Below, one piece after another: positions 13,582 to 37,562 of a stretch of DNA of 37,729 bases (positions are counted from its first letter, which is position 1; every line of letters starts with the position of its first letter). Source of the stretch: Bacillus rhizoplanae (GTDB lineage: Bacteria; Bacillota; Bacilli; Bacillales; Bacillaceae_G); assembly GCF_917563915.1 (NCBI RefSeq), contig NZ_CAKJTI010000032.1, forward strand, positions 1-37,729, written 5' to 3'. The translations under genes were made by a program, and so were the position numbers. Below the pieces are notes generated by a model. The model searched no databases. It saw nothing but the letters and a program-made list of their open reading frames with translations, and was not told where the DNA came from.

Positions 13582-13896
13582 CCTCGTATTATCGGATAGT
13601 AAAACCCTCACTGATGTAAGTTTCACTTTATCCCGCTATTTGCGGGCAGTAAGATCTCCACCTCAAGATTGTGAGGAATCCGAAGAAAAAAGGTGGGAGA
13701 TAACTGCCTGTAAAAGCCCGATTGGTTCAACTAACCTTCTGGGAAAAAACGCTCTCAGAAGGAAGTTTCACTTTATCCCGCCCAAACAGCCGGTAAGAAG
13801 TAAGGCAAGGAAGAGAGACAAACCGTCTGTAAGGTCCCGATTGGTTCAACTAACCATTCGGAGAAAGAACATCTCCGAATGGAAGTTTCACTTTAT
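13582..13896 (+). repeat. Cluster of three bcr1-like copies sharing TTTAT junctions
   Basis: A degenerate short copy (about 13582-13631), a full copy (13627-13776) and another copy (13772-13896) are joined so that each TTTAT junction (13627-13631, 13772-13776) is shared. The last TTTAT, 13892-13896, contains the stop codon of the permease gene. The two longer copies keep CCCGATTGGTTCAACTAACC and terminal hairpins with different sequence but matching arms (CTTCTGGGA/TCTCAGAAG-like and CATTCGGAGA/TCTCCGAATG). Confidence 0.78.
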
Positions 13897-15302
13897 GCGG
13901 CGTCGTCTTTTTGTTCGTTTCTCAAAGTACTATTTTTATATCCGTAGCTGAAATATACAATTAAACCGATAACTAACCAAACACCAAAGCCAATCCATGT
14001 TGTTACTGGAAGCTGTAATGTTAGGTATCCGCAGAATAGAATTGCTAATATTGGAACCCATGGTACGAAAGGTACTTTAAAGGCACGCGGCAAGTCTGGC
14101 TGTTTTTTGCGTAAGATGATAACACCAATTGATACAACGATGAATGCAAATAATGTACCAATGTTTGTTAGTTCTGCTAGCTTGCTTAATGGAACAAAGC
14201 CAGCAAAGAAAGCAACCATAGCTGCTGTAATCCAGCTATTCATAACAGGTGTTTGCGTTTTTGGGCTTACACGAGAAAGTGCTTTTGGCAGTAAGCCATC
14301 GCGGCTCATTGCATAAAATAAACGTGTTTGTCCATATAACATAACGAGTAACACGGTTGTAATCCCAGCAATTGCTCCTAAAGAGACAAGGCCGGCAACC
14401 CAATCTTGATGAATATATTGCAGTGCAAATGCTACAGGGTTTTTTACATCTAACTGACTGTAGGGAACGATTCCTGTTAATATTAATGAAACAACGATAT
14501 ATAAGATTGTACAGATTGCTAAGGAAGCGATAATACCAATTGGCATGTTACGCTGTGGATTTTTTACTTCTTCAGCAGCTGTTGATACAGCATCAAATCC
14601 AATATAAGCAAAGAATACAGTTGCAGCTCCAGTTGTTACGCCAGAGAAGCCAAATGGCATAAATGGTGTCCAGTTTTCAGGTTTTACATAGAAAGCACCA
14701 ACACCGATGAATAGAAGAACAACAAATAATTTGATAGCTACCATAATAGCGTTAAAACGAGCTGATTTTTTTGCACCTCTTGTTAATAACAATGTCATGA
14801 TGAAAATAATGCAAATTGCCGGCACGTCTACATATGTTCCAGCCGCAGGGTTGTAAGCGCTTGTTAAAGCATGCGGCAGTTTAATACCAAAGCCAGCTAA
14901 TAATCCTTGGAAATATCCAGACCAACCAGATGCAACGGCTGAAGATGCCAAACCGTATTCTAGAATTAAATCCCATCCTAAAATCCAAGCGATTATTTCT
15001 CCAAATGTTGCGTAACTGTAAGTGTATGCACTACCTGATACCGGTACAGTTGAAGCAAATTCGGAATAACATAATGCTGCGAATACACAGGCTAAACCGG
15101 ATAAAATAAACGATAAAATAAGTGCTGGTCCTGCATGTTCTGCTGCAGCAACGCCAGTAAGAACGAAAATGCCCGTTCCGATAATAGCGCCGACTCCTAA
15201 CATTGTTAAATCAAATGCCCCTAAATCCTTTTTTAAAGAAGCTCCTTTCTGCTGTGATTGTGCTAACATTGCGGAAATCGATTTTTTTCGAAATAGATCC
15301 AT
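13893..15302 (-). CDS. APC-superfamily amino-acid permease (YfnA/CAT-like)
   Basis: A 469-residue membrane transporter with about twelve hydrophobic segments. Early in the protein GVGAIIGTGIFVLTG (about residues 36-50) is the helix-1 substrate-binding signature of the APC superfamily. FFAYIGFDAVSTAAEEVKNPQRNMP (about 240-264) is the conserved cationic-amino-acid-transporter segment. It resembles B. subtilis YfnA and the Geobacillus CAT homologue GkApcT; the exact amino acid cannot be read. The C-terminal codons ...KDDAA end at a TAA that lies within the TTTAT end of a bcr1-like copy. It is divergent from the DUF4362 lipoprotein gene, with a large dyad between them. Confidence 0.92.
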   Translation of the reverse strand: MDLFRKKSISAMLAQSQQKGASLKKDLGAFDLTMLGVGAIIGTGIFVLTGVAAAEHAGPALILSFILSGLACVFAALCYSEFASTVPVSGSAYTYSYATFGEIIAWILGWDLILEYGLASSAVASGWSGYFQGLLAGFGIKLPHALTSAYNPAAGTYVDVPAICIIFIMTLLLTRGAKKSARFNAIMVAIKLFVVLLFIGVGAFYVKPENWTPFMPFGFSGVTTGAATVFFAYIGFDAVSTAAEEVKNPQRNMPIGIIASLAICTILYIVVSLILTGIVPYSQLDVKNPVAFALQYIHQDWVAGLVSLGAIAGITTVLLVMLYGQTRLFYAMSRDGLLPKALSRVSPKTQTPVMNSWITAAMVAFFAGFVPLSKLAELTNIGTLFAFIVVSIGVIILRKKQPDLPRAFKVPFVPWVPILAILFCGYLTLQLPVTTWIGFGVWLVIGLIVYFSYGYKNSTLRNEQKDDAA

Positions 15303-15433
15303 ATAGATCCCTCACCCTCATTGTTGTTATAATATTCTGAACATTAAGATCGCGTTGTCGTAAAATGTCGAATCTTTAAACGTATTGTAATATGAAAAAT
15401 GGGCATTGTAAATACTAATTTTTTAGAAAATTC

Positions 15434-15480
15434 TACCTATACAAAAAACGATAGATTTCTTGTCGATATTTGTATAGGTA
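15434..15480 (+). promoter_or_regulatory. Large hairpin with T tail between divergent genes
   Basis: Exact 12-bp arms TACCTATACAAA (15434-15445) and TTTGTATAGGTA (15469-15480), with further pairs (CGA / TCG) inside, followed by TTTTTATTG. It looks like an intrinsic terminator on the plus strand, but the permease (minus) and the lipoprotein gene (plus) diverge here, so it can only be an attenuator of the lipoprotein gene, an operator, or a remnant. Confidence 0.6.
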
Positions 15481-15552
15481 TTTTTATTGCTACGACAAGT
15501 TATTTCATTTTGAATGATAGTATCAAGTCAAAATGGGTTGGAGAGGATTAAG

Positions 15553-16017
15553 ATGAGAAAAGGAATTGTCTCATTGTGCTTTCTATTCTACATAGGCGGT
15601 TTGGCGGGTTGTTTATCTACTGTAAAAACAGTAGAAGATAATCAGAAACATGGTGAAGCGAAAGTTGATGAAAAGAATGATATCGTCGCAAAAATAGGTG
15701 AGGGATCTAATTTAGATCGGTTTCAGCAGTTTCTGACTCATGTGAAAAGCGGCAAAGCTGATAGAGTGCGTATTGTGAATTATACAGATGAAGGAGATCC
15801 GATTTTTCAAACATTAGATTATGATGGAATCAATATAAACTATCTTTTTGATGATTCTAACGACAAATTTGGAGGAAGTCATAAAGGGAAAAAAAGCAAT
15901 GTGTGTAAAGGGATTATGAAAGAAAAAAGCGGTGAAGACGTAAGCTGTAAATTAAGTGAATGTAAAGAAAATCATGAGTATATCAGTTATTTTTTGTTGA
16001 AGATACCTCATGGATAA
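15553..16017 (+). CDS. DUF4362-type lipoprotein
   Basis: A 154-residue predicted lipoprotein. A short basic N-terminus (MRKG) precedes a hydrophobic segment and the lipobox LAGC, so cleavage and lipidation at about Cys20 are expected, with Lgt, also encoded here, as the modifying enzyme. The mature part contains RVRIVNYTDEGDPIFQTLDYD and a DDSNDKFGG segment that match DUF4362 as I remember it; function unknown. GGAGAGGA supports the ATG at 15553 over the upstream opening of the frame at 15514. The stop codon TAA lies inside the ATAAA end of a short bcr1-like copy. Confidence 0.78.
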   Translation: MRKGIVSLCFLFYIGGLAGCLSTVKTVEDNQKHGEAKVDEKNDIVAKIGEGSNLDRFQQFLTHVKSGKADRVRIVNYTDEGDPIFQTLDYDGININYLFDDSNDKFGGSHKGKKSNVCKGIMKEKSGEDVSCKLSECKENHEYISYFLLKIPHG

Positions 16018-16078
16018 AGTGAAACTTCCATCAGTGGGGGTTTTCTTCAGCCCTCACTGCCCGTTAATGCGGGATAAA
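16014..16078 (-). repeat. bcr1-like repeat, short form (65 bp)
   Basis: ATAAA ends at 16014-16018 and 16074-16078. It keeps GTGAAACTTCCATCAGTGG and ACTGCCCGTTAATGCGGG but lacks the middle of the element, including the GATTGGTTCAAC core. Bases 16015-16017 are the stop codon of the lipoprotein gene. Confidence 0.75.
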
Positions 16079-16157
16079 CAAAAAAGATGCTTAGTAAATA
16101 GGCTTCTTTTTTTGTTGTTATATATTGAATTTGTAGAAAGGGTGTCGAATTGTTTAT

Positions 16158-16171
16158 CGAATATTTGTTCG
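16158..16171. promoter_or_regulatory. LexA (DinR) box upstream of uvrB
   Basis: CGAATATTTGTTCG matches 12 of 14 positions of the Bacillus LexA consensus CGAACRNRYGTTYG. It lies 86 bp before the uvrB start and just upstream of a TAAAAT at 16202-16207, placing uvrBA under SOS control as in B. subtilis. Confidence 0.8.
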
Positions 16172-16243
16172 TTTTTTTGGTTTTTTTATGAGCATTCGTG
16201 GTAAAATGGGAATACAGATTTTTTACGAGGAGGGCGGATTTAT

Positions 16244-18226
16244 TTGGAACATCAATTTGAAATTGTCTCAGAATATTCCCCGCAAGGTGACCAGCCAAGA
16301 GCGATAGAGCAGCTGGTAGCTGGGATTAAAAATGGTAAGAAACATCAAGTGTTGCTTGGAGCGACAGGAACGGGTAAGACATTTACGATTTCAAATGTCA
16401 TTAAAGAAGTCAAGAAGCCAACACTTGTAATGGCTCATAATAAAACGTTAGCAGGACAGCTATACAGTGAGTTGAAAGATTTCTTTCCGAACAATGCGGT
16501 TGAATATTTTGTTAGTTACTACGACTATTATCAACCGGAAGCGTATGTACCGCAAACCGATACATTTATTGAAAAAGACGCACAAATTAATGATGAGATT
16601 GATAAATTGCGTCACTCAGCGACATCGGCTTTATTTGAACGAGATGATGTTATTATTGTAGCGAGTGTGTCTTGTATTTACGGTTTAGGTTCTCCAGAAG
16701 AATATAGTGAGCTTGTTGTCTCTTTACGCGTTGGTATGGAGAAGGAACGCAATCAACTGCTTCGTGAACTTGTTGATGTGCAGTACGGCCGTAATGATAT
16801 TGACTTCCAGCGTGGAACGTTTCGCGTGCGCGGGGATGTAGTTGAGATTTTTCCAGCATCCCTTGATGAACATTGTATTCGGATTGAGTTTTTTGGCGAT
16901 GAGATTGATCGTATTCGAGAAGTGAATGCATTAACAGGTGAAGTATTAGCAGAACGTGAGCATGTGGCAATCTTCCCGGCATCTCACTTCGTTACACGCG
17001 AAGAAAAAATGAAAGTTGCCATTGAAAATATTGAAAAAGAATTAGAAGAACGTTTAAAAGAATTAAATGATAACGGTAAATTGTTAGAAGCGCAGCGGAT
17101 AGAGCAGCGAACACGTTACGATTTAGAAATGATGCGTGAGATGGGTTTTTGTTCAGGGATTGAGAACTACTCCCGTCATTTGACGCTCCGTCCAGCTGGT
17201 TCAACACCATATACATTATTAGATTATTTTCCTAAAGATTTTCTTATCGTGATGGATGAGTCGCATGTATCAGTGCCGCAAGTAAGAGCGATGTATAACG
17301 GAGATAAAGCGCGTAAGCAAGTGCTTGTTGATCATGGATTCCGTCTGCCATCAGCGCTAGATAACAGACCGCTTATGTTTGAAGAGTTTGAAGAGAAAAC
17401 GAATCAAGTTGTGTACGTATCAGCAACGCCGGGACCGTATGAATTAGAACATACACCGGAAGTTGTGGAGCAAATTATTCGTCCAACTGGGCTTTTAGAT
17501 CCGCAAATTGATGTACGTCCAATCGAAGGACAAATTGATGATTTATTAGGAGAAATTCACGACCGAATTGCAAAAAATGAGCGCGTTTTAATTACAACAT
17601 TAACAAAGAAAATGTCAGAGGATTTAACTGATTACTTGAAGGATGTTGGGATTAAAGTAAATTATTTGCATTCTGAAATTAAAACATTAGAACGGATTGA
17701 GATTATTCGCGATCTTCGTCTAGGGAAGTTTGATGTGCTTATTGGTATTAACTTACTTCGTGAAGGACTCGATATTCCAGAAGTGTCGCTTGTAGCAATA
17801 TTAGATGCAGATAAAGAAGGATTCCTTCGTTCAGAGCGCTCGCTTATTCAAACGATTGGCCGGGCAGCACGTAATGCAAATGGTCATGTTGTGATGTATG
17901 CGGACCGAATTACAAAATCGATGGAAATCGCAATCAATGAAACGAAGCGTCGTCGTCAAATTCAAGAAGCATACAATGAAAAGCATGGGATTACACCAAA
18001 AACAATTCAAAAAGAGGTGCGCGATGTCATTCGTGCAACGATGGCTGCGGAAGATACAGAAACGTATGAGACAGCACCACTAACTTCTAAGAAAATGACG
18101 AAAAAAGAACGAGAAAATGTCATTGCAAAAATGGAAGCGGAAATGAAAGAAGCTGCAAAAGCGCTTGATTTTGAACGGGCAGCTGAGCTTCGTGATTTAT
18201 TACTAGAGCTAAAAGCAGAAGGGTGA
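16244..18226 (+). CDS. uvrB: UvrB, excinuclease ABC subunit B
   Basis: A 660-residue helicase-like damage verifier of nucleotide excision repair; with UvrA it loads on lesions and recruits UvrC for incision. Walker A GATGTGKT is at about residues 39-46. The beta-hairpin region contains [21 protein letters not shown]. Motif II is DESHV, motif VI is QTIGRAARN, and the C-terminal UVR domain ([20 protein letters not shown]) that contacts UvrC is complete. The start is TTG at 16244 after GGAGGG. uvrA follows with a 5-bp gap, or overlaps if its GTG is used, so the two form an operon under the LexA box at 16158. Length is normal for the family. Confidence 0.97.
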
Positions 18227-18231
18227 AGGCG

Positions 18232-21102
18232 ATGAGTAAAGATTTTATCGTTGTAAAAGGTGCGAGAGCCCACAATTTAAAAAATATTGATGTCACCATT
18301 CCGAGAAATCAACTTGTTGTTGTAACAGGGTTATCTGGTTCAGGAAAATCGTCGTTAGCATTTGATACGATTTATGCGGAAGGACAGCGCCGTTATGTAG
18401 AATCACTATCGGCGTATGCACGTCAATTTTTAGGACAAATGGATAAACCGGATGTGGATGCAATTGAAGGATTGTCTCCGGCTATTTCAATTGATCAAAA
18501 AACGACGAGTCGCAATCCGCGTTCAACAGTCGGAACGGTGACAGAGATTTACGATTATTTACGTTTATTATTTGCGCGTATCGGAACACCAATTTGTCCA
18601 AATCACGGCATTGAAATTACATCGCAAACAGTTGAGCAAATGGTAGATCGTATTTTAGAATATCCAGAGCGTACGAAACTCCAAGTGCTCGCGCCGATTG
18701 TATCAGGCCGTAAAGGTGCGCATGTAAAGTTGTTAGAAGATATTAAAAAGCAAGGGTATGTTCGCGTTCGTGTTGACGGGGAAATGCTTGATGTATCGGA
18801 AGAAATTACGTTAGATAAAAATAAAAAGCATTCGATTGAGGTTGTAATTGATCGCATTGTTGTGAAAGAAGGAATTGCAGGCCGTCTTGCTGATTCGTTA
18901 GAAACAGCTTTGAAGCTTGGTGAGGGCCGCGTTTTAATTGACGTAATCGGAGAAGAAGAGTTGCTGTTTAGCGAGCATCATGCTTGTCCGCATTGCGGAT
19001 TTTCTATTGGTGAACTTGAGCCGCGCATGTTTTCTTTTAACAGTCCTTTCGGTGCGTGTCCGTCTTGTGATGGTCTTGGTGCAAAGCTAGAAGTAGATCT
19101 TGATTTAGTGATTCCAAACTGGGATTTATCATTAAATAATCATGCAATTGCGCCTTGGGAACCAACAAGTTCGCAATATTATCCGCAATTGTTGCAGTCT
19201 GTTTGTAACCATTATGGTATTGACATGGATGTGCCGGTAAAAGATATTCCGAAGCATTTGTTTGAGAAGGTGTTATACGGAAGCGGAGATGAAAAAGTAT
19301 ATTTCCGCTATGTGAACGACTTTGGTCAAGTGAAGGAAAGCGATATTATTTTTGAAGGCGTGATTCCAAACATTGAGCGCCGTTACCGGGAAACGAGCTC
19401 TGATTATATTCGTGAGCAAATGGAAAAATATATGGCGGAGCAAGCTTGTCCAAAATGTAAAGGCGGCCGTTTGAAACCAGAAAGCTTAGCTGTTTTTGTA
19501 GGTGAGAAAACGATTGCGGAAGTAACGCAGTTTTCCGTTCAGGAAGCGCACGATTTCTTTACAAATATTGAATTAACAGAAAAGCAACAAAGTATTGCTA
19601 ATCTTATTTTGCGTGAAATTAAAGAGCGTCTTAGTTTCTTAATTAACGTAGGACTCGATTATTTAACGCTTAGCCGTGCAGCCGGAACATTATCAGGCGG
19701 AGAAGCACAGCGTATTCGCTTAGCGACGCAAATTGGATCGCGGTTAACGGGTGTATTGTATATCCTTGATGAACCTTCTATCGGTTTGCACCAACGTGAC
19801 AATGATCGCTTAATCCATACGCTGCAAGAAATGCGTGATTTAGGAAATACGCTTATTGTTGTTGAACACGATGAAGATACGATGATGGCCGCAGACTATT
19901 TATTAGATATTGGTCCTGGTGCAGGTATTCACGGCGGGCAAGTCGTTTCAGCAGGTACGCCGCAAGAAGTGATGCATGATGACAATTCCTTAACAGGACA
20001 ATATTTATCAGGCAAAAAGTTTATTCCAGTTCCGCTGGAGCGCCGCAAAGGTGATGGGCGTAAAATAGAGATTATTGGAGCGAAGGAAAATAACTTAAAA
20101 AATGCGAAGATGTCATTCCCGCTTGGCACATTTGTTGCTGTAACGGGTGTATCAGGTTCAGGGAAAAGTACACTAATTAATGAAGTGCTATATAAAGCGG
20201 TTGCTCAAAAATTATATAAATCGAAAAGTAAGCCTGGTATGCATAAAGAAATTAAGGGTCTTGAGTATTTAGATAAAGTGATCGATGTTGATCAATCACC
20301 AATTGGGCGTACACCGCGTTCAAACCCAGCAACATATACAGGTGTGTTTGATGATATTCGTGATGTGTTTGCACAAACGAATGAAGCGAAAGTGCGCGGT
20401 TATCAAAAAGGGCGCTTCAGCTTTAATGTGAAAGGTGGCCGCTGTGAAGCGTGCCGCGGCGATGGAATTATTAAAATTGAAATGCATTTCTTGCCAGATG
20501 TATATGTTCCGTGTGAAGTTTGTCACGGAAAACGTTATAATCGTGAAACATTAGAAGTAAAATATAAGGATAAAAACATTTCTGAAGTATTAGAGATGAC
20601 AATTGAAGATGGAGTAGAGTTCTTTGCGAATATCCCGAAAATTAAACGTAAGCTCCAAACGCTTGTGGATGTAGGGCTCGATTACATGAAACTCGGTCAA
20701 CCAGCAACGACGTTATCGGGCGGAGAAGCGCAGCGCGTGAAGCTAGCATCTGAGCTGCATCGTCGTTCAACAGGACGAACGTTATACATTTTAGATGAAC
20801 CGACAACTGGCCTTCATGCACATGACATTGCTCGTCTATTAAAGGTGCTTCAGCGTCTTGTTGATAATGGTGAAACAGTGCTTGTGATTGAACATAATTT
20901 AGATGTTATTAAAACGGCAGACTACCTTATTGATCTTGGGCCTGAAGGCGGCGATAAAGGCGGACAAATCGTTGCAACAGGTACGCCGGAGCAGGTTGTG
21001 AAAGAAGTGCGTTCTTACACAGGCAAGTATTTAAAAGATGTTTTAGATCGTGATAAAGCACGCATGAAAGAAAAAGTGGAAGAAGTAGAATTAACACAGT
21101 AA
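18232..21102 (+). CDS. uvrA: UvrA, excinuclease ABC subunit A
   Basis: A 956-residue ATPase that scans DNA for lesions and hands them to UvrB. Tandem ABC modules are complete: Walker [10 protein letters not shown] near the N-terminus and GVSGSGKST in the second half, with signatures [17 protein letters not shown] and [17 protein letters not shown], and Walker [10 protein letters not shown] and LDEPTTGLH. Zinc-binding CPHCGF...[14 protein letters not shown] and CEACRGDG...CEVCHGKR sites are present. I prefer the ATG at 18232 ([16 protein letters not shown]). A GTG at 18223 overlaps the uvrB stop and would add three residues. A 18-bp-stem terminator closes the operon. Confidence 0.97.
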
Positions 21103-21106
21103 AACA

Positions 21107-21150
21107 AACATCTAATAAAGAAGTATTACTTCTTTATTAGATGTTTTCTG
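21107..21150 (+). terminator. Intrinsic terminator of uvrBA
   Basis: Perfect arms 21107-21124 (AACATCTAATAAAGAAGT) and 21128-21145 with a three-base loop, then TTTTC. Confidence 0.88.
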
Positions 21151-25708: not shown

Positions 25709-27220
25709 ATGGGGAAAAATCAAGAAATTCATAAAGAGAACGGACAAGTTATTTCTTTTAATCAATTAGCTGACTTCTTTTATAATAAAGGTATGAAGGC
25801 TTATCGCAATCATCATTTAGAAGATGCAATTAAATATTTTAAGAGAGCGGCACAAAATCAGAAAGAGCCGTTTATTTTATGTCAATTAGCAACGGCATTA
25901 TCGGAAGCGGGAGAGTATCACGAATCGAATCAAATCTTATTACAAATTGTTCGTACGGGTGAACAAATAGAAGAATGCTATTATTTTATGGCAAATAATT
26001 ATGCGTATCTTGGGTTATTCCAACAAGCAAAAAAATATGCAGAGCGGTATTTAGAGATTGCGACGGATAAAGAATTTATTGCTGAAACGATAGAACTTCT
26101 AGAGATCATTGAAGAAGAAGAAATGGATACGCCGGAATTCGAAGATGAAGATGGATTAATTGTGATGCAAGAGCAAGCAAATCATTATATTCGTAACGGT
26201 CAATTAGAAGAGGCGATTGCGACGCTTGAAGGAGTCATAACGGAATATCCGGAATTTTGGTCAGCGCATAATAATTTAGCAATTGCTCATTTTCAGCTTG
26301 GGAATGTTGATCAAGCGTTGAAAATGACAGAGCTGATTTTAGAGAAGAATCCAGGGAATATTCATGCGTTATGTAATACGCTTATTTTTCTATATTCCAT
26401 TGGGGAATATAAGCAAGTAGAAAAGTTAGCAGAGCAATTGGAAACAGTGTATCCGATGTCGTTTGAACATCGTGTGAAACTAGGGACAACATTTGCGACA
26501 ATTGGTCGTTTTGAAAGTGCATATAAATGGTTAAAAGTGTTAAAACGTCAAGGTTACGAAGGTGATGTTAGCTTTTATTATTGGTTTGCATATTCTGCCT
26601 ATATGGTAAAGGATGAGCAAACAGCCGAGAAAATGTGGGCGCATGTAGTGGAATTACATCCTGATAAAAAGGGAAAAGAACCTTGGAATGCTATTAATTT
26701 AGTAGATGAAGGCCAAAATATTTTATTCCGAGAGCTTCAGCAATCGTTTCAAAAAAGTGAAACATTGGAAGAACAAATGCTCGCTTTATATTTAATGAAT
26801 GAACTGACAACACCAGAGAAGCTTGGCTTTTTCTTTGATGTTATGCAATCTCCTAAGCGTGTTCCGATTGTATCGCAACTAGCGAACTATTTCTTCTTAA
26901 TTAACAGTCATAAAAGTATTCCAAGAGAACTGCAGCAGTTTGAACAATGTATTCGTATTGCAGATGCTTTATACAATTATACGAAAAAAGATGATGAGCT
27001 TATTGAAGAATGTTTACATCTTTGGTTTTGTACATTTATACGTTTATACACGAGCGGAACGTCCTTTACAAATGTATATGGCTGGTCAGCAGCAGTTGAA
27101 TATATTGTACGCGGCGAGTGCCGAGATAAGTTAACGCAGGCAGAGCTTGGTAATATATATAATGTATCGGTAGCAACTGTAGGAAAATATGTGCAAGCAG
27201 TGAGACGTTTGCATGCATAA
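25709..27220 (+). CDS. yvcD: TPR-repeat protein with C-terminal HTH-like segment (YvcD-like)
   Basis: A 503-residue cytoplasmic protein. Tetratricopeptide-type helix pairs fill the first half: NKGMKAYRNHHLEDAIKYFK (about residues 28-47), YYFMANNYAYLGLFQQAKKY, ANHYIRNGQLEEAIATLEG and AHNNLAIAHFQLGNVDQALK. An acidic linker (EIIEEEEMDTPEFEDEDG) lies near residue 135-152. The last 30 residues, KLTQAELGNIYNVSVATVGK onward, look like a recognition helix-turn-helix of the TFIIB or sigma type. It precedes trxB as yvcD does in B. subtilis. Its role is unknown; TPRs suggest protein scaffolding. GGAGGAG precedes the ATG. The TAA stop lies within the ATAAA end of a bcr1-like copy. Confidence 0.85.
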   Translation: MGKNQEIHKENGQVISFNQLADFFYNKGMKAYRNHHLEDAIKYFKRAAQNQKEPFILCQLATALSEAGEYHESNQILLQIVRTGEQIEECYYFMANNYAYLGLFQQAKKYAERYLEIATDKEFIAETIELLEIIEEEEMDTPEFEDEDGLIVMQEQANHYIRNGQLEEAIATLEGVITEYPEFWSAHNNLAIAHFQLGNVDQALKMTELILEKNPGNIHALCNTLIFLYSIGEYKQVEKLAEQLETVYPMSFEHRVKLGTTFATIGRFESAYKWLKVLKRQGYEGDVSFYYWFAYSAYMVKDEQTAEKMWAHVVELHPDKKGKEPWNAINLVDEGQNILFRELQQSFQKSETLEEQMLALYLMNELTTPEKLGFFFDVMQSPKRVPIVSQLANYFFLINSHKSIPRELQQFEQCIRIADALYNYTKKDDELIEECLHLWFCTFIRLYTSGTSFTNVYGWSAAVEYIVRGECRDKLTQAELGNIYNVSVATVGKYVQAVRRLHA

Positions 27221-27416
27221 AGTGAAACTTCCATTGGAAGGTGCTTTTCCTTCGAATGGTTAGTTGAACTAATCGGGCTTTTACGGACAGTTATCCCCCA
27301 CCTATCTTCTTCGCTTCTCTCTGAATCTTGAGGTGGGGATCCTACTGTCCGTTAATGCGGGATAAGGCGAAACTTTCATCAGTGGAGGTCTTACTGCCCG
27401 TGAATAGCGGGATAAA
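27217..27416 (-). repeat. Full plus short bcr1-like copies in tandem
   Basis: A full copy (27217-27366) in reverse orientation with CTTCCATT...AATGG hairpin, GGTTAGTTGAACTAATCGGG core and CCACCT / AGGTGG inner stem is joined through a decayed ATAAG junction to a short copy (27362-27416) lacking the core. The first ATAAA includes the yvcD stop codon. Confidence 0.78.
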
Positions 27417-30034: not shown

Positions 30035-30388
30035 TTAAGCTTTTAATAAATTACTCATGAGTAATTTTAGTTCTTCAGTTTGAAAAGAAGGTTTTTTTCC
30101 AGGAATAGCATGATGTACTTGGTAACCAAGCATCAGTAAAATCTACAGTTCTGCTGTTCTACTACTATCGATGGAGCTTTTAATCACACCATGTTGTTGG
30201 TCACTTTCAATCCATTGTTTTGAAAAATGTAATGCATGTTCATAGTATTGCTGTAGTACCTTCATGACAGAAGGTTCATTTTCTCTTCCTAATAAATATA
30301 ACAGCACTCGATTTGTCACTAGATGATCCTCAGAAGTCGACAAGTTCTGTATAACTTTCTCTAAGGATGCCTCAAAAGTTTTTCTCCT
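30035..30388 (-). pseudogene. Decayed TetR-family regulator
   Basis: Read on the minus strand, the frame from 30388 encodes KTFEASLEKVIQNL, then HLVTNRVLLYLLGRENEPSV and further to SSIDSSRTAEL. It then meets an in-frame TAG (30145-30143) and continues as ILLMLGYQVHHAIPGKKPSF to a TAA at 30037-30035. This is the C-terminal ligand domain of a TetR repressor. The N-terminal DNA-binding HTH is absent; a TAA precedes the fragment and only AT-rich non-coding sequence lies upstream. The gene is therefore both truncated and interrupted. It sits 21 bp upstream of the DoxX start, an arrangement typical of a repressor and its target. Confidence 0.8.
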
Positions 30389-30498
30389 TTACTTATCATT
30401 TTTATTCATATTTTTCATGTTTTTTACTAAAAATACAAAAAAGGTAGATTGGTTGACAAAGTTACTTGAACATACAGTGATTATCTTTGCTTTTCTAC

Positions 30499-30634
30499 TG
30501 TATCCCGCTCTAACAAGCAGTAAGCGAAGGTGGAAATTCAAGGAGGAGAACTGCTTGTAAGAACCCGATTGGTTCAACTAACCATTCGAAGGAAAAGCAC
30601 CTTCGAATGGAAATTTCACTTTATCCCGCTACTT
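30499..30634 (+). repeat. bcr1-like repeat upstream of lutA
   Basis: Ends TGTAT (decayed) at 30499-30503 and TTTAT at 30620-30624. Arms AAGCAGT / ACTGCTT replace the usual GGGCAGT pair with compensating changes. The core CCGATTGGTTCAACTAACC and the hairpin CATTCGAAGG / CCTTCGAATG are intact. CCCGCTACTTT after the last TTTAT resembles the start of a further, truncated copy. It ends about 23 bp before the lutA start. Confidence 0.78.
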
Positions 30635-30656
30635 TACCTTATTTGGAGGTGTCAAT

Positions 30657-31388
30657 ATGAAAGTATCCGTATTTATTACTTGTCTTGGGGATGTTTTTTA
30701 TCCAGAAGTAGGAAAAGATGTTGTTGAAATTCTTGAAGATTTAGGTTGTGAAGTCGACTTTCCAAAAAATCAAACCTGCTGTGGTCAACCTGCTTATAAT
30801 AGCGGTTATCAAAAAGAAACGAAAACAGCTGCAAAACATATGATTGAAGCATTTGCTGGTTCAGAATATGTTGTGGCACCATCAGGGTCTTGTGTCATGA
30901 TGGTTCACGAGTTTTCAAGCTTATTTTCTGAAAGTGAAACAGAATGGAAGCAAAAGGCTACTGAACTTGCAAAGAAAACATATGAATTTACACAATTTCT
31001 TGTAGAAGTGTTAGGTAAAGAAGATTTAGGTGCGGAACTTCATAAAAAAGCAACTGTTCATACATCTTGTCATATGAGCCGGTTAATGGGTATTAAGGAA
31101 CCTCCTCAAAAGTTATTAAAACATGTAAAAGGGTTAGAAGTCGTTCCATTATCACACAATTATGATTGCTGTGGATTCGGCGGTACATTCTCAGTGAAGA
31201 TGGCAGAAATCTCAGAGCAAATGGTTGATGAAAAAGTGAAACATATTATGGAAACAGGTGCGGAAGTGTTAATCGGAATGGATTGCAGCTGTTTAATGAA
31301 TATAAAAGGTCGATTAACACGTAATGGCTATCCAATTGAGGTAAAGCATATTGCTCAAGTATTAAATGAGGATAGAAGGGGGATATAA
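30657..31388 (+). CDS. lutA: LutA, L-lactate oxidation iron-sulfur protein
   Basis: A 243-residue protein of the lactate-utilization LutABC complex, which oxidises L-lactate to pyruvate. It consists of two cysteine-rich CCG domains: CxxC-type and [12 protein letters not shown] near residues 35-47, then a second domain with [11 protein letters not shown] and [14 protein letters not shown] near residues 140-180 and a final DCSCLMN. These CCG motifs are hallmarks of heterodisulfide-reductase-like proteins. GGAGGTG lies eight bases before the ATG. It is the first gene of a three-gene operon, with lutB two bases downstream. A TTGACA (30454-30459) lies beyond the bcr1-like copy, so the lut mRNA may carry the repeat in its leader. 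Confidence 0.93.
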
Positions 31389-31390
31389 AA

Positions 31391-32806
31391 ATGGGAATGA
31401 AAATTGGAAACGATCCCTTTCATAAACGCACTGAAACGGCCGTTGGTGATCAATTCATGAGAAGGGCTGTTGCGAAAGCTCAAGATGGCCTTAGAAGTAA
31501 GAAATTAAAAGCTACTGAAAGTCTTGGAAACTGGGAAGAATGGCGATCTTTAGGAGAAGAGATTCGGAAGCATACACTAGAAAACCTTGATTATTATTTA
31601 TATCAACTCAGTGAAAATATCGAAAAAAACGGGGGCTTTGTTTATTTCGCAGAGACTGCTGAAGATGCAAGGGAATACGTAAAAGGTATTATAAAAAAGA
31701 AAAACGCGAAAAAAATTGTAAAGTCAAAATCTATGGTAACGGAAGAAATCAGTCTAAATGAAGCAATGGAAGAAGTTGGCGGGGAAGTATTAGAAACGGA
31801 TCTTGCAGAATTTATTTTACAAATTAATGACCATGATCCGCCATCACATATTGTTGTTCCTTGTCTTCATAAAGATAAAGAAAGTATTTGTGAGTTGTTT
31901 AAAGAAAAAATAGGTTATACCGGAACAGCTGATCCTGAAAAAATGGCGAGGTTTGTACGGAACTATTTGCGTAATGACTTTTTAACAGCGGATGTAGGAG
32001 TGACTGGGTGTAATTTTGCTGTTGCAGAGTCCGGGTCTGTTTCTATTGTAGCGAATGAAGGGAATGCGAGGTTAGTTACGACCATTCCGAAAACGTTAAT
32101 TACCGTTATGGGTATGGAACGGATTGTCCCAACATGGGAGGAGCTGGATGTGTTAGTAACACTCCTGTGCCGAAGTTCTGTAGGGCAAAAGTTAACAAGT
32201 TATATTACAGGCTTAACGGAACCTGGGGGGACAGATGGACCTGAGGAATTTCATTTAGTAATTGTTGATAATGGGCGTTCCAATATTTTAAGAACAGAAT
32301 TCCAAAGTGTCCTTCAATGTATTCGTTGCGCGGCATGTATTAATGTATGTCCAGTATATCGTCATATCGGAGGTCATGCATACGGCTCAATCTATCCAGG
32401 TCCGATCGGTGCTGTATTGACACCGCTTTTAGGAGGATATGATGAATATAAAGATCTACCTTATGCATCTAGCCTTTGCGGTGCTTGTACGGAAGCATGT
32501 CCCGTAAAAATACCTTTACATGAATTGTTAATTCGACATCGCCGACAGATTGTGGAAGAAGCGAAAAAGTCTCCTTTAGCTTGGGATATGGCTATGAAAG
32601 GCTTTGAAAAAATGGCGAATAGCTCGAGGTCGTTCTCCCTTGCAGCGAGGACAGCTCCGTACGCATTAAAGCCCTTTATAAAAGGAGACAAAATTGAACG
32701 CGGGGTAGGGCCGTTAAAAGCTTGGACAGAAGCGAGAGATTTTCCGGCTCCGAAAAAACAACCGTTTAGAGATTGGTTTGAAAAACGGTCAAGGGAGGAG
32801 AAATAA
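31391..32806 (+). CDS. lutB: LutB, L-lactate oxidation iron-sulfur protein
   Basis: A 471-residue LutB/YkgF-like protein. The N-terminal two thirds are an LUD domain ([17 protein letters not shown] and [20 protein letters not shown]). The C-terminal part is a ferredoxin-like segment with two [4Fe-4S] motifs, [19 protein letters not shown] (about residues 311-329) and [17 protein letters not shown] (about 361-377). Together with LutA and LutC it converts L-lactate to pyruvate and passes electrons on. It starts two bases after the lutA stop, and its TAA shares a base with the lutC ATG, so the operon is translationally coupled. Length is close to the 479 residues of the B. subtilis protein. Confidence 0.94.
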
Positions 32807-33507
32807 TGGCTATTCAAAATCGCGATACATTTTTATCCCGATTATCAGAGAAACTGGGCAGAAAACGCCCGGAAACAGTAAAAAAACCAAGTTGGTCTTT
32901 TTCTCCACAATGGAGCGTTTTTGACGGATTAACACAAGATGAACTTATATCGAAGTTAGTTGAACAATGTGAAGATATTCATACAGAAGTTCAGCGAACA
33001 ACGAAGGCAAACCTTGTTGAAACGTTACAATCCTTTATGAAAGAATGGAATATCGGATCTGTTATTTATTCTTATGATGAACGGTTTGATGAATATAATC
33101 TGAATGGATTTTTTACAAGTGAAGGGGAGATACATTTCCATAAATGGGATTTGGATCATAAAGAAGAGAGTATTGAATTTGCAAAAACAGCTGATGTTGG
33201 AATTACGTTTAGTGATATAACTCTTGCTGAATCAGGAACTGTCGTTTTATTTAATGAGGGTATAAAAGGGAGGCCAGTTAGTCTTCTTCCTGAATCATAT
33301 ATCGCAATTGTCCCGAAAAGTACGATTGTGCCAAGATTAACACAAGCTACAAAGATGATTCATAATCAAAATATGAAGGGTGAAAAAATCCCATCCTGTT
33401 TGAACTTCATCTCTGGTCCATCAAACAGTGCTGATATTGAAATGAATCTTGTCGTAGGTGTTCATGGACCAATAAGAACAGCATATATTATTGTGGATGA
33501 TCAATAA
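32806..33507 (+). CDS. lutC: LutC, L-lactate utilization protein (LUD domain)
   Basis: A 233-residue single LUD-domain protein (YkgG/LutC family), required with LutA and LutB for growth on L-lactate. TADVGITFSDITLAESGTVVL (about residues 125-145) and CLNFISGPSNSADIEMNLVVGVHGP (about 197-221) are family landmarks. The ATG overlaps the lutB stop (TAATG). No lutR gene is present nearby, so regulation is not visible here. Downstream are a decayed bcr1-like copy and a terminator. Confidence 0.94.
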   Translation: MAIQNRDTFLSRLSEKLGRKRPETVKKPSWSFSPQWSVFDGLTQDELISKLVEQCEDIHTEVQRTTKANLVETLQSFMKEWNIGSVIYSYDERFDEYNLNGFFTSEGEIHFHKWDLDHKEESIEFAKTADVGITFSDITLAESGTVVLFNEGIKGRPVSLLPESYIAIVPKSTIVPRLTQATKMIHNQNMKGEKIPSCLNFISGPSNSADIEMNLVVGVHGPIRTAYIIVDDQ

Positions 33508-33575
33508 TTGTACAAGGCCTCTCTCTGCCACCTGCCGATCAAATTAATATGCTGAAGTATCCCAATTAGAAAATT

Positions 33576-33680
33576 TTTTTCGCTACTTTGGAGCAGTAAG
33601 ATTCCCGCCTCAAGATTCAGAGAAAAACAAGAAATATAGGTGGGGGATGAAAAAAATTACTTATGGAAGTTTCACTTTAT
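33576..33680 (+). repeat. Decayed bcr1-like repeat after lutC
   Basis: GAGCAGTAAGATTCCCGCCTC and AGGTGGGGGAT keep the left half and inner stem; the GATTGGTTCAAC core and terminal hairpin are deleted, and the end GGAAGTTTCACTTTAT (33665-33680) is preserved. Confidence 0.65.
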
Positions 33681-33695
33681 TTTTTTCACTGAATG

Positions 33696-33726
33696 GTGAT
33701 GGGAATAGTCTCCCATCATCTTTTTA
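33696..33726 (+). terminator. Intrinsic terminator downstream of lutABC
   Basis: TGATGGGA (33697-33704) and TCCCATCA (33711-33718) with a six-base loop, then TCTTTTT. It sits after the repeat remnant. Confidence 0.85.
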
Positions 33727-33753
33727 ATTTGTCAGAGGCCGGGCGTTCCTTCA

Positions 33754-33782
33754 TTGTGACAAACTGTATTTGATAGTATAAT
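33754..33782 (+). promoter_or_regulatory. Promoter of the yvcI-crh operon
   Basis: TTGTGA (33754-33759), a 17-bp spacer and TATAAT (33777-33782), about 54 bp before the yvcI start. Confidence 0.8.
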
Positions 33783-33835
33783 GAAGTGAGTATATAATGG
33801 GGATTTCCCTGTTATAAGTAGCTGAGGTGAGAAGC

Positions 33836-34294
33836 TTGCAAAGAGTGACAAACTGTGTGTTAATCAAGGATAATGAAGTTCTCCTATTACAAAAGCCTCG
33901 TCGAAATTGGTGGGTTGCTCCAGGCGGCAAGATGGAGCGCGGCGAAACAGTAAGAGAGTCGGTTGTTCGTGAATATCGCGAAGAAACGGGTATTTATTTG
34001 AAAAATCCAACATTAAAAGGTGTTTTTACTTTCGTGATCCAAGAAGGAGATAAGGTTGTTTCTGAATGGATGATGTTTTCCTTCTTAGCTACAGATTTTG
34101 CAGGAGAAAATAAATTGCAAAGCGAAGAAGGGATAATAGGCTGGCATACAGTTGATAAGATTGATGAGCTGCCAATGGCGCCAGGAGATTATCATATTAT
34201 TGATTATTTAATTAAAGGAAATGGTATTATTTACGGTACATTTGTATATACACCAAATTTTGAATTACTTTCGTATCGATTAGATCCGAGTTAA
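33836..34294 (+). CDS. yvcI: YvcI, Nudix hydrolase
   Basis: A 152-residue Nudix hydrolase, first gene of the conserved yvcI-rapZ-yvcK-whiA-crh cluster. The Nudix box GGKMERGETVRESVVREYREETGI (about residues 33-56) satisfies G-x5-E-x7-REUxEExGU with all catalytic residues. The substrate is a nucleoside diphosphate derivative in general terms and cannot be specified. The frame opens at a GTG at 33827, but GAGGTGA at 33824-33830 serves the TTG at 33836, giving the expected beginning QRVTNCVLIKDNEVLLLQKP. rapZ follows within 20 bp. Confidence 0.93.
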   Translation: MQRVTNCVLIKDNEVLLLQKPRRNWWVAPGGKMERGETVRESVVREYREETGIYLKNPTLKGVFTFVIQEGDKVVSEWMMFSFLATDFAGENKLQSEEGIIGWHTVDKIDELPMAPGDYHIIDYLIKGNGIIYGTFVYTPNFELLSYRLDPS

Positions 34295-34313
34295 ACCATA
34301 AGGGGGGGATATG

Positions 34314-35195
34314 ATGGACGCACATAATGATATTAAAATGGTCATTATTACAGGAATGTCCGGAGCAGGAAAAACGGTTGCTCTGCAAAGCTTTGAGGAT
34401 TTAGGATATTTTTGTGTGGATAATTTACCGCCCATGTTGTTGCCGAAGTTTGTTGAATTAATGGCAGATTCGAAAGGGAAAATGAATAAAGTAGCGCTTG
34501 GTATCGATTTGCGTGGCCGAGAGTTTTTTGATCACTTATGGGAAGCACTTGATGATTTAACAGAACGTACATGGATTATTCCGCATATTTTATTTTTAGA
34601 TGCAAAAGATAGTACGCTTGTAACTCGTTATAAAGAAACGAGGCGTTCACATCCACTTGCTCTAACAGGTCTTCCGTTAAAAGGAATAGAAGCAGAGCGT
34701 ACGCTGTTAACAGATATGAAGGCGCGCGCGAATATTGTCCTTGATACGTCAGACTTAAAACCGAAAGAGTTAAGAGAAAAGATTATTCAATTATTCTCAC
34801 CTGAGAGTGAGCAAGCATTTCGTGTGAACGTGATGTCATTTGGATTTAAATATGGTATTCCAATTGATGCTGATTTAGTATTTGATGTTCGTTTTTTACC
34901 GAATCCATACTACATTCCACACATGAAGCCGTTAACAGGTCTTGATGAGGAAGTATCATCCTATGTGCTGAAGTTTAATGAAACGCACAAATTTCTAGAG
35001 AAGTTAACAGACCTTATTTCCTTTATGCTTCCACATTATAAGCGAGAAGGAAAAAGTCAACTTGTCATTGCAATTGGATGTACAGGCGGACAACATCGAT
35101 CCGTTACGCTTGCAGAATATTTGACGAAACATTTGAAGCAAGAGTGTCCAACTCATGTGTCTCATCGTGATGTGGAGAAGAGAAAGGGACATTAA
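34314..35195 (+). CDS. rapZ: RapZ/YvcJ, nucleotide-binding adaptor protein
   Basis: A 293-residue P-loop protein. The Walker A GMSGAGKT is near residues 14-21 and the following [15 protein letters not shown] is the RapZ signature; the C-terminal domain has [20 protein letters not shown], the conserved GCTGGxHRSV motif. In E. coli RapZ is an RNA-binding adaptor for small-RNA decay; the Bacillus homologue YvcJ hydrolyses GTP and affects competence. Two adjacent ATG codons exist; the spacing from AGGGGGG (34301-34307) favours the second, at 34314. It is tightly packed, three bases before yvcK. Confidence 0.94.
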
Positions 35196-35198
35196 GCG

Positions 35199-36152
35199 AT
35201 GGAAAAAGAGAGAAAACCGAAAATCGTTATTATGGGAGGCGGAACTGGTTTATCCGTTTTATTGCGCGGGTTAAAAAAGTATCCTGTCGATATTACAGCG
35301 ATTGTAACGGTTGCTGATGATGGGGGAAGTTCTGGGAGACTTCGTGATGAGTTAGAAATTCCACCTCCTGGAGACATTCGCAACGTGCTTGTTGCGTTGT
35401 CTGATGTGGAGCCTCTTGTGGAGGCGTTATTCCAACATCGTTTTACATCAGGAGAAGGATTAACAGGACATGCGCTTGGTAATTTATTGTTAGCTGGAAT
35501 GACAGCTATTACGGGCGATTTCTTTCATGCCATTACGGAAACAAGTAAAGTGTTAAATGTAAGAGGCCGTGTACTTCCAGCTGCGAATCAAAGTGTTGTT
35601 TTGCATGCGGAATTGGAAGATGGGCAAATTGTAAGCGGGGAATCTAAAATTCCGTATTACGGCAAAAAGATTAACCGTGTATTTTTAACACCGGGGGAAG
35701 TAGAACCGCTTCATGAAACACTAATGGAAATTCGAAAAGCTGATTTACTTGTATTTGGGCCAGGTAGTCTATACACAAGTATTTTGCCGAATTTAATGGT
35801 AAAAAAAATCGGCGATGCAGTCCTTCGTGCAAAAGCGAAGAAAGTGTATGTGTGTAATGTAATGACTCAAGTTGGTGAAACAAGGGGATATACAGCGTTT
35901 GATCATGTGAAAGCATTGCATGATCATCTTGGAGAAGCGTTTATTGATACAGCAATAGTGAACGATGAACCAATTCCAGTTGAATTATTAGGACGTTATG
36001 CAGAAGAAATGTCGAAGCCAGTTACAATTGATGAAGAGCATTTTACAGCGCATAATATTAAGTTGATTAAAGATCGTTTAGTAAAATATGATGATCAAGT
36101 TGTGCGTCATGATACAGTAAAATTAGCTTCGATTTTACATTCGTTAATATAA
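35199..36152 (+). CDS. yvcK: YvcK/MgfK, gluconeogenesis factor
   Basis: A 317-residue member of the YvcK/CofD-like family, a UDP-sugar-binding protein needed for growth on gluconeogenic carbon sources and for normal cell shape. The N-terminal glycine-rich loop GGGTGLSVLLRGL (residues 13-25) and ADDGGSSGRLRDE (about 41-53) form the ligand site, followed by PPGDIRNVLVALSD; FGPGSLYTSILPNL (about 185-198) is another conserved stretch. It lies between rapZ and whiA, as in most Firmicutes, and no terminator is seen on either side, only a short GCGTTAC / GTAACGC stem before whiA. Confidence 0.95.
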   Translation: MEKERKPKIVIMGGGTGLSVLLRGLKKYPVDITAIVTVADDGGSSGRLRDELEIPPPGDIRNVLVALSDVEPLVEALFQHRFTSGEGLTGHALGNLLLAGMTAITGDFFHAITETSKVLNVRGRVLPAANQSVVLHAELEDGQIVSGESKIPYYGKKINRVFLTPGEVEPLHETLMEIRKADLLVFGPGSLYTSILPNLMVKKIGDAVLRAKAKKVYVCNVMTQVGETRGYTAFDHVKALHDHLGEAFIDTAIVNDEPIPVELLGRYAEEMSKPVTIDEEHFTAHNIKLIKDRLVKYDDQVVRHDTVKLASILHSLI

Positions 36153-36281
36153 ATTGTAAGCTTGAAGAAATAGTGAAGAGGCTTGCATAGTAGAAGGCGT
36201 TACTTCTTTGAGGTAACGCTACAAATTCATTTAGGGCATGAAAATAATTATGATTTTACATTTTGTCAGGAGGTGAAATGG

Positions 36282-37232
36282 TTGTCATTTGCATCAGAAA
36301 CAAAGAAAGAGCTGACAAAGCTTGAAATGAAGGGGTGCTGTGAGAGGGCAGAGTTATCAGCATTACTTCGGATGAACGGTTCACTCTCCTTTTCAAATCG
36401 CCGTGTAATCATTGATATTCAAACGGAAAATGCAGCGATTGCTCGAAGAATTTATACATTATTGAAAAAAGGATATAACGTTACAGTTGAGTTACTTGTG
36501 CGTAAGAAAATGCGCTTAAAGAAAAATAATGTGTATATCGTTCGTTTAGTCGAAAAAGCACGTGAAATTTTATCGGATTTGCAAATTGTACGAGAGGACT
36601 TTTCGTTTATTCGTGATATTTCACAAGAATTAATTGAGAAAAAGTGTTGTAAACGTTCATATTTACGCGGTGCGTTTTTAGCTGGTGGTTCCGTTAATAA
36701 TCCGGAAACATCATCATATCATCTAGAAATTTTCTCGTTATACAAAGAACATAATGATGCGATATGTGAACTTATGAACGAGTTTGCATTAAATAGTAAA
36801 ACGTTAGAAAGGCGAAAAGGGTATATTACGTATTTAAAGGAAGCGGAAAAGATTACCGAGTTCTTAAATATTATTGGTGCTCATAATGCTCTTTTAAGGT
36901 TTGAAGATATTCGCATTGTGCGCGATATGCGTAATTCTGTAAATCGTCTTGTGAATTGTGAAACAGCAAACTTAAATAAGACGATTGGTGCAGCCTTAAG
37001 GCAAATCGAAAATATTCGTTATATTGATGAAACAGTTGGTCTGGATTTTTTACCAGATAAATTACGTGAAATCGCAGAACTGCGTATCAATTATCAAGAT
37101 GTTACATTGAAAGAATTGGGGGAAATGGTATCCGGGGGAAACATTAGTAAATCGGGTATCAACCATCGTTTACGTAAAATCGATGATATTGCTGATAAAT
37201 TGCGTGCTGGAGAAGCAGTTGCAAAAAAATAA
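36282..37232 (+). CDS. whiA: WhiA, DNA-binding regulator
   Basis: A 316-residue WhiA protein: an N-terminal degenerate LAGLIDADG homing-endonuclease-like domain ([21 protein letters not shown] in the second repeat, about residues 126-146) and a C-terminal HTH ([33 protein letters not shown], about 270-302). In Bacillus WhiA binds DNA and influences cell division and chromosome segregation. The frame opens at 36183, but AGGAGGTG (36268-36275) points to the TTG at 36282, which gives [15 protein letters not shown] and the same length as the B. subtilis protein. crh follows by 21 bp. Confidence 0.96.
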
Positions 37233-37253
37233 AAGGTAAAGGGGAATGGAGCT

Positions 37254-37511
37254 GTGGTTCAAAAACAGGTAGAGGTGTTGTTGAAAACTGGATTGCAAGC
37301 ACGTCCGGCAGCGTTGTTTGTACAAGAAGCAAATCGTTTTCAAGCCGATATTTTTATGGAGAAAGACGGAAAAACAGTCAATGCTAAGAGTATTATGGGG
37401 ATTATGAGCTTAGCAATTGGATCTGGATGTAAAGTTACAATTACTGCAGAAGGATCAGATGAAACAGCAGCATTAGAAGCACTTGTTGCTTATGTGCAAA
37501 AAGAACAATAA
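37254..37511 (+). CDS. crh: Crh, catabolite repression HPr-like protein
   Basis: An 85-residue HPr paralogue. Position 15 is glutamine (GLQARPA) instead of the histidine phosphorylated by enzyme I, so it cannot take part in sugar uptake. Ser46 is present (KSIMGIMSLAIGSG), the site used by HprK, and Crh-Ser-P is a co-effector of CcpA. GTG start at 37254 after GGGGAATGGAG. It is the last gene of the yvcI cluster. Its TAA stop is bases 37509-37511, inside the ATAAA end of a short bcr1-like copy, and a terminator follows that copy. Confidence 0.97.
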   Translation: MVQKQVEVLLKTGLQARPAALFVQEANRFQADIFMEKDGKTVNAKSIMGIMSLAIGSGCKVTITAEGSDETAALEALVAYVQKEQ

Positions 37512-37562
37512 AGTGAAACTTCCATCAGTGGGGGTCTTACTGCCCGCGAATAGCGGGATAAA
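37508..37562 (-). repeat. bcr1-like repeat, shortest form (55 bp)
   Basis: ATAAA ends at 37508-37512 and 37558-37562; GTGAAACTTCCATCAGTGG, then GTCTTACTGCCCGCGAATAG. It is almost the same as the short copy at 27362-27416. The left ATAAA contains the crh stop codon and the right one leads into the crh terminator. Confidence 0.78.

Follow-up and report, generated by a model that had tools for sequence, protein, structure and literature searches.

A bcr1-like repeat of Bacillus rhizoplanae and its relatives coincides with TAA stop codons more often than the frequency of ATAAA predicts

The GTAG REPs, which are mobilised by RAYT transposases, have termini that, according to the available text of PMC3733652, 'often provide' the ORFs beside them with a TAG stop, and the enterobacterial RU-1 repeats are, in the available part of PMC2759123, likewise small mobile repeats at gene 3' ends. 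The Bacillus cereus repeat bcr1 is a group A MITE-like element with a TTTAT motif; the accessible portions of PMC6542083 and PMC3446304 describe TTTAT/ATAAA ends, as found here, and transcription in UTRs, and a link between bcr1 and stop codons was not found in those portions.

The window analysed here, meaning the whole 37,729-nucleotide stretch of B. rhizoplanae DNA, contains a repeat that a sequence-only reading had named bcr1, a name that fits by description in its TTTAT motif and size. Five window copies span 124–150 nt from ATAAA to ATAAA (to ATAAG at 27217), in agreement with a repeat of about 150 bp with TTTAT at both ends, and other window copies have altered or absent 3' ends. The 16-mer ATAAAGTGAAACTTCC occurs at 14 places in the window with up to three mismatches, against 0.71 expected, and no Rfam family matched the window at gathering thresholds. 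Folding and alignment revealed two adjacent imperfect hairpins, with folding z-scores of −2.4 to −5.6 for six window copies and changes on both sides in 6 of 26 consensus pairs, with a small covariation term (−0.44). bcr1 is reportedly confined to the B. cereus group and absent outside it, whereas the relatives described here lie outside: among 397 genomes from the order to which a Neobacillus genome belongs, 57 contain the exact 16-mer (12 of them with at least 11 places), compared with 7/397 for the reversed 16-mer. The repeat as found here is not restricted to the B. cereus group, and whether the term bcr1 covers these relatives depends on how it is defined. A scan of genome contigs for the window repeat gave one Neobacillus locus, a plasmid collection gave no match to window positions 13755–13896, and among 13 viral stretches with the exact 16-mer only L007 and L009 resemble the repeat by eye. 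The window proteins are at most 87% identical to those of the relative loci over at least 100 residues, and the best yvcD match among 398 Bacilli genomes is 41% identical.

In four window copies the 5' ATAAA contains the TAA stop of a gene, and the ORF ends and the sequence confirm this claim of the sequence-only reading to the base. The gene for an amino acid permease of 469 residues (13893–15302, minus strand; PF13520 and PF13906) has its TAA inside the ATAAA at 13892–13896, which is the 5' end of a minus-strand copy at 13772–13896; this copy shares its 3' ATAAA (13772–13776) head to tail with a second minus-strand copy (13627–13776), after which a third begins at 13627–13631. The gene for a DUF4362 protein of 167 residues (15514–16017, plus strand; PF14275) ends inside the ATAAA at 16014–16018, where a short copy of 65 nt (16014–16078, plus strand), recognized by 16-mer match and folding, begins. 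The gene called yvcD in the sequence-only reading (25709–27220, plus strand), encoding a TPR protein of 503 residues that is full length against its homologues, ends at the ATAAA at 27217–27221 of a full-length plus-strand copy (27217–27366; 3' end ATAAG), and a short tandem copy, recognized from the sequence and a 16-mer match, lies immediately 3' of it (27362–27416, plus strand). Finally, the gene called crh in the same reading (37254–37511, plus strand), encoding an HPr-like protein of 85 residues (PF00381), ends at the ATAAA at 37508–37512 of a short copy of 55 nt (37508–37562, plus strand; 16-mer match and folding). Derivatives of 55–65 nt thus make up two of the four copies at stops. Each of the four genes has its end no more than five codons from the ends of its listed homologues, and none of the 17 listed homologue ends, all from other genera, has an ATAAA stop. 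In all four cases GTGAAACTTCC follows the ATAAA; this common orientation, also pointed out before, is forced because TTTAT contains no stop and only the ATAAA strand carries TAA, and it is not separate evidence.

Twelve window ends were scored with one gene caller and one definition of ATAAA: four lie at stops, seven are intergenic and one is within a called gene. Outside genes, 4/11 ends are at stops, compared with 4/44 of the other non-disruptive ATAAA words (p = 0.013); a cruder gene caller recovered just two of the four coincidences. A repeat-like 3' end precedes three of the 11 listed ends, and two of these three (13616–13631 and 13761–13776) form clear head-to-tail junctions. As head-to-tail copies share one ATAAA, the element's own end is a target too.

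The search for empty ATAAA sites at gene ends of related strains, proposed with the sequence-only reading, gave one base-exact case among the relatives of bcr1. Genome G024 has ..GGAACATAAAGTAAAATGCCC.. with a single ATAAA stop, and G397 has ..GGCACATAAA-element-ATAAATAGAAATGCCC.., with ATAAA on both sides of the element. The earlier proposal that ATAAA/TTTAT is the target is supported. The pattern of the G024/G397 pair, one word when empty and two when filled, is that expected of a MITE and was seen in this one pair, in which an element-borne second word would look identical. At a second empty site (L173) the element is absent without base precision. For the two sites of L155, the stop at 5823 extends over the first base of ATAAA and the end of the gene in G024 is not alignable base by base, and for 14165 no match to the upstream gene lies at the corresponding place in G024; the G024 matches to L165 are scattered over contigs, none spanning the site. 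An extended target motif was also considered and dropped, the flanks being near background.

We regard it as probable that bcr1 is a two-hairpin mobile element that inserts at ATAAA and that leaves genes intact when it lands on their stops. The small element would insert at this fixed five-base word (TTTAT on the other strand) and would then have ATAAA on either side. At an ATAAA stop the TAA and the protein would stay unchanged, because the 5' ATAAA stays joined to the gene, and the DNA after the stop would be pushed downstream over a distance equal to the element's length (54–214 bases where both ends are recognized). Target specificity, together with purging of insertions in genes and control regions, would make the coincidence with stops common. 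This proposal draws on the observed target word, stop coincidence, intact genes and exact empty site, and we infer the sorting of insertions by selection.

It is also possible, though less probable, that ATAAA is part of the element, which would insert without duplicating a target, in the manner of IS200/IS605- or REP-like single strands, so that the gene takes the stop of the element. With a single word at both ends, the sequence is the same for this route and for target duplication. The two adjacent imperfect hairpins and the fixed word at the ends would suit it, as would the strand bias: the ATAAA strand lies opposite the G-rich strand for 48/51 and 39/49 copies in two genomes and, more weakly, for 28/44 in a third (p = 0.014). 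Lagging-strand single-strand transposition would give such a bias. However, G252 shows no bias (18 versus 16), no clear bcr1 copy was found near Y1 transposases in the 30 loci examined (from a total of 82 Y1 matches, spread over 24 genomes), 11 of which gave weak single-piece matches at three to four mismatches allowed, and the high-copy genomes G023 and G057 gave no Y1 match; a Y1 transposase was rejected as a partner on the basis of the 30 loci. The marks of a GTAG REP/RAYT system, a GTAG tag with a palindrome of 20–40 nt and a repeat-flanked RAYT gene, were likewise not found, either as GTAG at the element ends in the alignment or as a clear repeat at these 30 of the 82 Y1 loci.

For comparison across genomes, copies of the bcr1 relatives were picked by an exact ATAAA-bearing motif in five genomes picked for high copy number, and genes were called with a home-made caller; when the ATAAA condition was dropped, 220 of 254 matches carried ATAAA. 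Excluding the 13 of 220 non-window copies inside called genes, 33 of 207 copies (15.9%) start on the TAA of a gene, compared with 213 of 5364 other non-disruptive ATAAA words (4.0%; p = 1e-11). The sequence-only reading had named a coincidence no higher than the frequency of ATAAA as its refutation, and it withstands this test, since 33/207 exceeds the 4.0% background, the copies tested being bcr1 relatives rather than those of B. cereus. By genome, stop copies number 3/44 in G246, 5/47 in G173, 6/43 in G397, 14/55 in G252 and 5/18 in G229; in the pooled test the p value is 0.37 for G246, which has no excess, and a borderline 0.057 for G173. With near matches, 49, 51, 44, 58 and 18 copies were counted, and 41, 41, 54, 54 and 37 exact places are known, respectively; G397 is represented by a subset of its places, G229 by 18 of 37, and G358 was left out.

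Much of this excess comes from the type of gap occupied. Within single intergenic gaps, 23 stop copies were observed against 17.4 expected among 145 copies (p = 0.02), 75 of the 220 being skipped for lacking a recognized 3' end or neighbours or for lying inside genes; the weight of the stop site is 2.2 (95% CI 1.1–4.2) for 196 copies, including those without a recognized 3' end. Taken alone, only G252 and the window (3/7) exceed expectation, and G397 has 3 against 3.2 expected. The stop site within a gap is therefore preferred modestly, about twofold, and gap composition accounts for the remaining excess. The suggestion that stop insertion explains tolerance in compact operons fits poorly, as 22 of the 33 stop copies have a convergently oriented gene as their next called neighbour. 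The additional twofold preference comes on top of what target specificity and purging would give, and it seems unlikely that the bcr1 machinery favours stops beyond tolerance, seeking gene ends with TAA(A) as a safe harbour; one such route might be a target at gene ends that is single-stranded or tied to transcription.

That stop copies are kept because their hairpins serve the host, for example by stabilizing or ending the mRNA, is in our judgement quite unlikely. The folding z-scores and two-sided changes given above, the residual stop-site preference and the one stop copy common to the related genomes G252 and G229 would be in line with it, although a DNA-level transposition signal would equally predict pairing. 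A structured mRNA 3' end at these genes is only predicted. No T-run follows either hairpin in a 40-copy alignment, unlike in intrinsic terminators. A consensus scan around two window copies, those that start at 16014 and 37508, found no terminator, whereas a home-made detector reported a hairpin with T's after both, and given this disagreement no terminator is claimed there. Among 164 non-window copies scored (27 stop, 131 intergenic and six one-base overlaps that were not tabulated), strict terminators lie 3' of the element at 6/27 stop copies, compared with 31/198 ordinary ATAAA stops; an element seeking ATAAA beside terminators was dropped on the same figures. In B. cereus RNA data for 18 repeat families, 84/165 and 62/155 repeats were transcribed in two strains, and mRNA decay correlated with bcr3 alone and not with bcr1, according to the available part of PMC3446304.

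That a common word and common stops merely meet by chance is very improbable: an ATAAA stop is found in roughly 10% of called genes (64/696, 71/628 and 57/573) and G246 alone is compatible with chance, but the pooled and within-gap tests disfavour it except as part of the between-gap share.

Among 45 same-strand genes overlapping the 5' end of an element, 33 have the TAA of ATAAA as their stop, seven end on the first A of this word, three end in the TGA of ATAAAGTGA and two further in. Because 33 genes use the TAA register and three that TGA, the stop pre-exists, and the element lands on it and leaves it intact. The earlier wording that the repeat supplies the stop is therefore right in placing the stop in ATAAA, but the register and the empty site indicate a stop that was already there and was preserved. 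A Pfam family was found in 18 of 20 scanned stop genes (of the 33), including domains of RNase J, GreA/GreB, seryl-tRNA synthetase and cobalamin-independent methionine synthase, and for the stop gene of L295, 31 of the 37 relatives examined, with G229 and G252 excluded, give a match that reaches or passes the last TAA base (match ends only); domains and homologues suggest full-length proteins. Truncation of genes by insertion within coding sequence is thus extremely improbable, even though two of the three reading frames of ATAAAGTGA contain a stop and five genes extend past ATAAA into the element, given the register, the apparently full-length proteins and the stop already present in the one empty site.

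The stop codon is seemingly a harmless landing place for the element. The numbers show how a mobile repeat can spread in gene-dense chromosomes with little harm, because the word it targets coincides in part with a common stop codon and is regenerated on insertion, and a number of genes thereby gain a movable hairpin 3' of the stop. Target choice and selection become testable against each other in genera beyond the B. cereus group where the element is abundant.

Compared with known systems, RU-1, in the case described in the available part of PMC2759123, took away the usual stop and made the protein longer, whereas the stop is kept here. The closest precedent is that of the GTAG REPs that supply TAG stops; in the available text of PMC3733652 they too are short hairpin repeats beside gene 3' ends, in gaps that are mostly convergent or same-direction. 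The present element differs in its stop, a TAA that lies in an ATAAA target, in its size of about 150 bp with two hairpins and in having no clear copy at the Y1 genes examined. A further difference is the present measurement of how far stop coincidence exceeds chance.

The DNA of the window, which we take to be Bacillus cereus-group-like, carries a repeat that we take to be bcr1, and the 5' end of this repeat, ATAAAGTGAAACTTCC, was found at 14 places with at most three mismatches in a scan of the window. The sequence-only reading had claimed that the ATAAA end of the repeat supplies the TAA stop of four genes, and this was confirmed at exactly the coordinates claimed. As identified from their domains, the genes encode an amino acid permease (stop within 13892-13896), a DUF4362 protein (16014-16018), a TPR protein (27217-27221; presumably YvcD) and an HPr-like protein (37508-37512; presumably Crh), and the TAA of each lies within the ATAAA that opens a repeat copy. 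The same orientation of the four copies provides no extra evidence, because TAA exists only on the ATAAA strand. Such stop copies account for four of the 11 copies outside genes in the window (p = 0.013). The four genes end within five codons of the ends of their listed homologues, and an ATAAA stop was found at none of the 17 listed homologue ends of window genes, all from other genera.

Regions around copies were taken from five genomes (G246, G173, G397, G252 and G229), and genes were called by a hexamer-based script. With the first caller, in three genomes, 14 of the 135 copies outside genes coincided with a stop, compared with 170 of 4249 background sites, i.e. other non-disruptive ATAAA (4.0%; p = 0.0011); with the final caller, in all five, the values were 33/207 (15.9%) and 213/5364 (4.0%; p = 1e-11). 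The coincidence thus exceeds chance in the pooled genomes, but not in G246 alone (3/44, p = 0.37); the stop copies numbered 5/47 in G173 (p = 0.057), 6/43 in G397 (p = 0.002), 14/55 in G252 (p = 5e-9) and 5/18 in G229 (p = 0.0002). The motif used for picking the regions itself includes ATAAA; since 220 of the 254 matches of a pentamer-blind 20-mer also have ATAAA, the choice of motif should not create a four-fold effect.

The type of gap that receives the element explains part of the excess. Occupancy was 0.186 at or overlapping the upstream stop, 0.055-0.060 up to 30 nt from it and 0.02-0.04 farther away, and the median gap was 74 nt for stop copies (with the copy removed), 238 nt for other copies and 143 nt for 1776 copy-free gaps. 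When each copy was compared only with the other ATAAA sites of its own emptied gap, 145 copies gave 23 at stops where 17.4 would be expected (p = 0.02), with a stop-site weight of 2.2 (95% CI 1.14-4.22) from 40 informative gaps; a stop-embedded ATAAA was occupied in 33 of the 53 gaps offering one. From this within-gap comparison, much of the four-fold enrichment therefore reflects gap type, and a modest preference for stops is left. Compact operons, proposed earlier as the setting, are not the main one, as 22 of the 33 stop copies are followed by a convergent called gene.

The order of events could be read in one case, where the predicted empty ATAAA site was found at an orthologous gene end. 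The gene at locus L175 of G397 ends in ..ACATAAA, followed by the element and then ATAAATAGAAATGCCC.., whereas its orthologue in genome G024 ends in ..ACATAAAGTAAAATGCCC.., with one ATAAA only; judging from this pair, the stop is older than the insertion in the single case read. For a pyridine nucleotide-disulphide oxidoreductase gene of G229 (L295), 31 of 37 relatives gave a match extending at least as far as the final TAA base, as judged from match ends only, and a Pfam family was found in 18 of the 20 stop genes scanned (of 33 in total). Truncation of genes by the element is disfavoured, as it should use the TGA register of ATAAAGTGA about as often as the TAA register, and the observed numbers were 3 and 33. 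A stop copy is common to L242 (G252 C4:58227) and G229 C8:60266-61839, with 88% identity over 1601 bases, which suggests one insertion inherited by both related genomes.

A full copy consists of ATAAA, an imperfect hairpin 1, a long hairpin 2 and ATAAA, with folding z-scores of -2.4 to -5.6 in six window copies. In an alignment of 40 copies, two from the window and 38 from two other genomes, six of 26 consensus pairs showed both-sided, pair-keeping changes, with a small covariation term (-0.44); the first stem of the two aligned window copies differs from that of the others and is paired with a complement of its own. Shortened copies (55-65 nt), in which the middle is mostly absent, lie at 16014-16078, 37508-37562 and 27362-27416, and a simple pattern found this type in 21 of 220 copies in other genomes; they perhaps originated by deletion between two GTGGGGG stretches of the full copy. 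At 13627-13896 and 27217-27416 head-to-tail copies have one word in common, and therefore bcr1's own end acts as a target. Regular head-to-tail arrays were seen at G346:C1:1197224-1197679, G013:C1:488896-489183 and G358:C1:785180-785437, with spacings of 146-147, 136 and 121 nt, respectively. Three copies of G246 (L091:16848, L092:12998 and L094:18099, minus-strand count) have a near-identical upstream flank, and the repeat therefore also belongs to a longer repeated unit.

After the stop, the element would add 54-214 nt of predicted structure (element lengths). It is unlikely to be a terminator: no T-run was found within the element itself, and strict terminators past the 3' ATAAA (6/27 stop copies, 31/198 ordinary ATAAA stops) were not clearly commoner. 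The window copies at 16014 and 37508 had a terminator according to our own detector and none in a consensus scan. From the part of the source available to us, 84/165 and 62/155 repeats of all families are transcribed in two B. cereus strains, and a correlation with decay is described for bcr3 only (PMC3446304).

The ATAAA strand lay opposite the G-rich strand for 48/51 copies in G173 (L120-L152), 39/49 in G246 (L085-L119) and 28/44 in G397; the bias was absent in G252 (16/34, loci of at least 10 kb only), and background ATAAA sites leaned slightly to the other strand. Single-strand transposition on the lagging strand gives a comparable bias, which the bcr1 pattern resembles by analogy, and the counts hint at strand-specific transposition in some lineages. 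No clear bcr1 copy was found beside a Y1 transposase, a possible mobiliser, in the 30 of 82 Y1 loci inspected, and two high-copy genomes had no Y1 match.

Within the order to which a Neobacillus genome belongs, 57 of 397 genomes contained exact matches to the 16-mer (for example at loci L016 and L028). As the reversed 16-mer matched in seven of the same 397, lone matches are possibly due to chance, and several single-match loci were unlike the repeat on inspection; twelve genomes have 11 to 54 exact copies. Window proteins showed at most 87% identity over at least 100 residues to loci of the sampled genomes, and we therefore take these genomes to lie outside the B. cereus group. Some bcr1-like repeats outside the group carry lineage-specific inserts in mid-element. 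To our knowledge, earlier reports restrict bcr1 to the B. cereus group, and the bcr1-like repeats in these genomes would go against this restriction.

A link between bcr1 and stop codons was not found in the portions available to us of PMC3446304 and PMC3733652, and a prior mention in the main bcr1 literature is possible. The nearest precedent, as far as the accessible part of the source goes, is that of the GTAG REP elements, which lie close to gene 3' ends and, through their termini, 'often provide' flanking ORFs with their TAG stop (PMC3733652).
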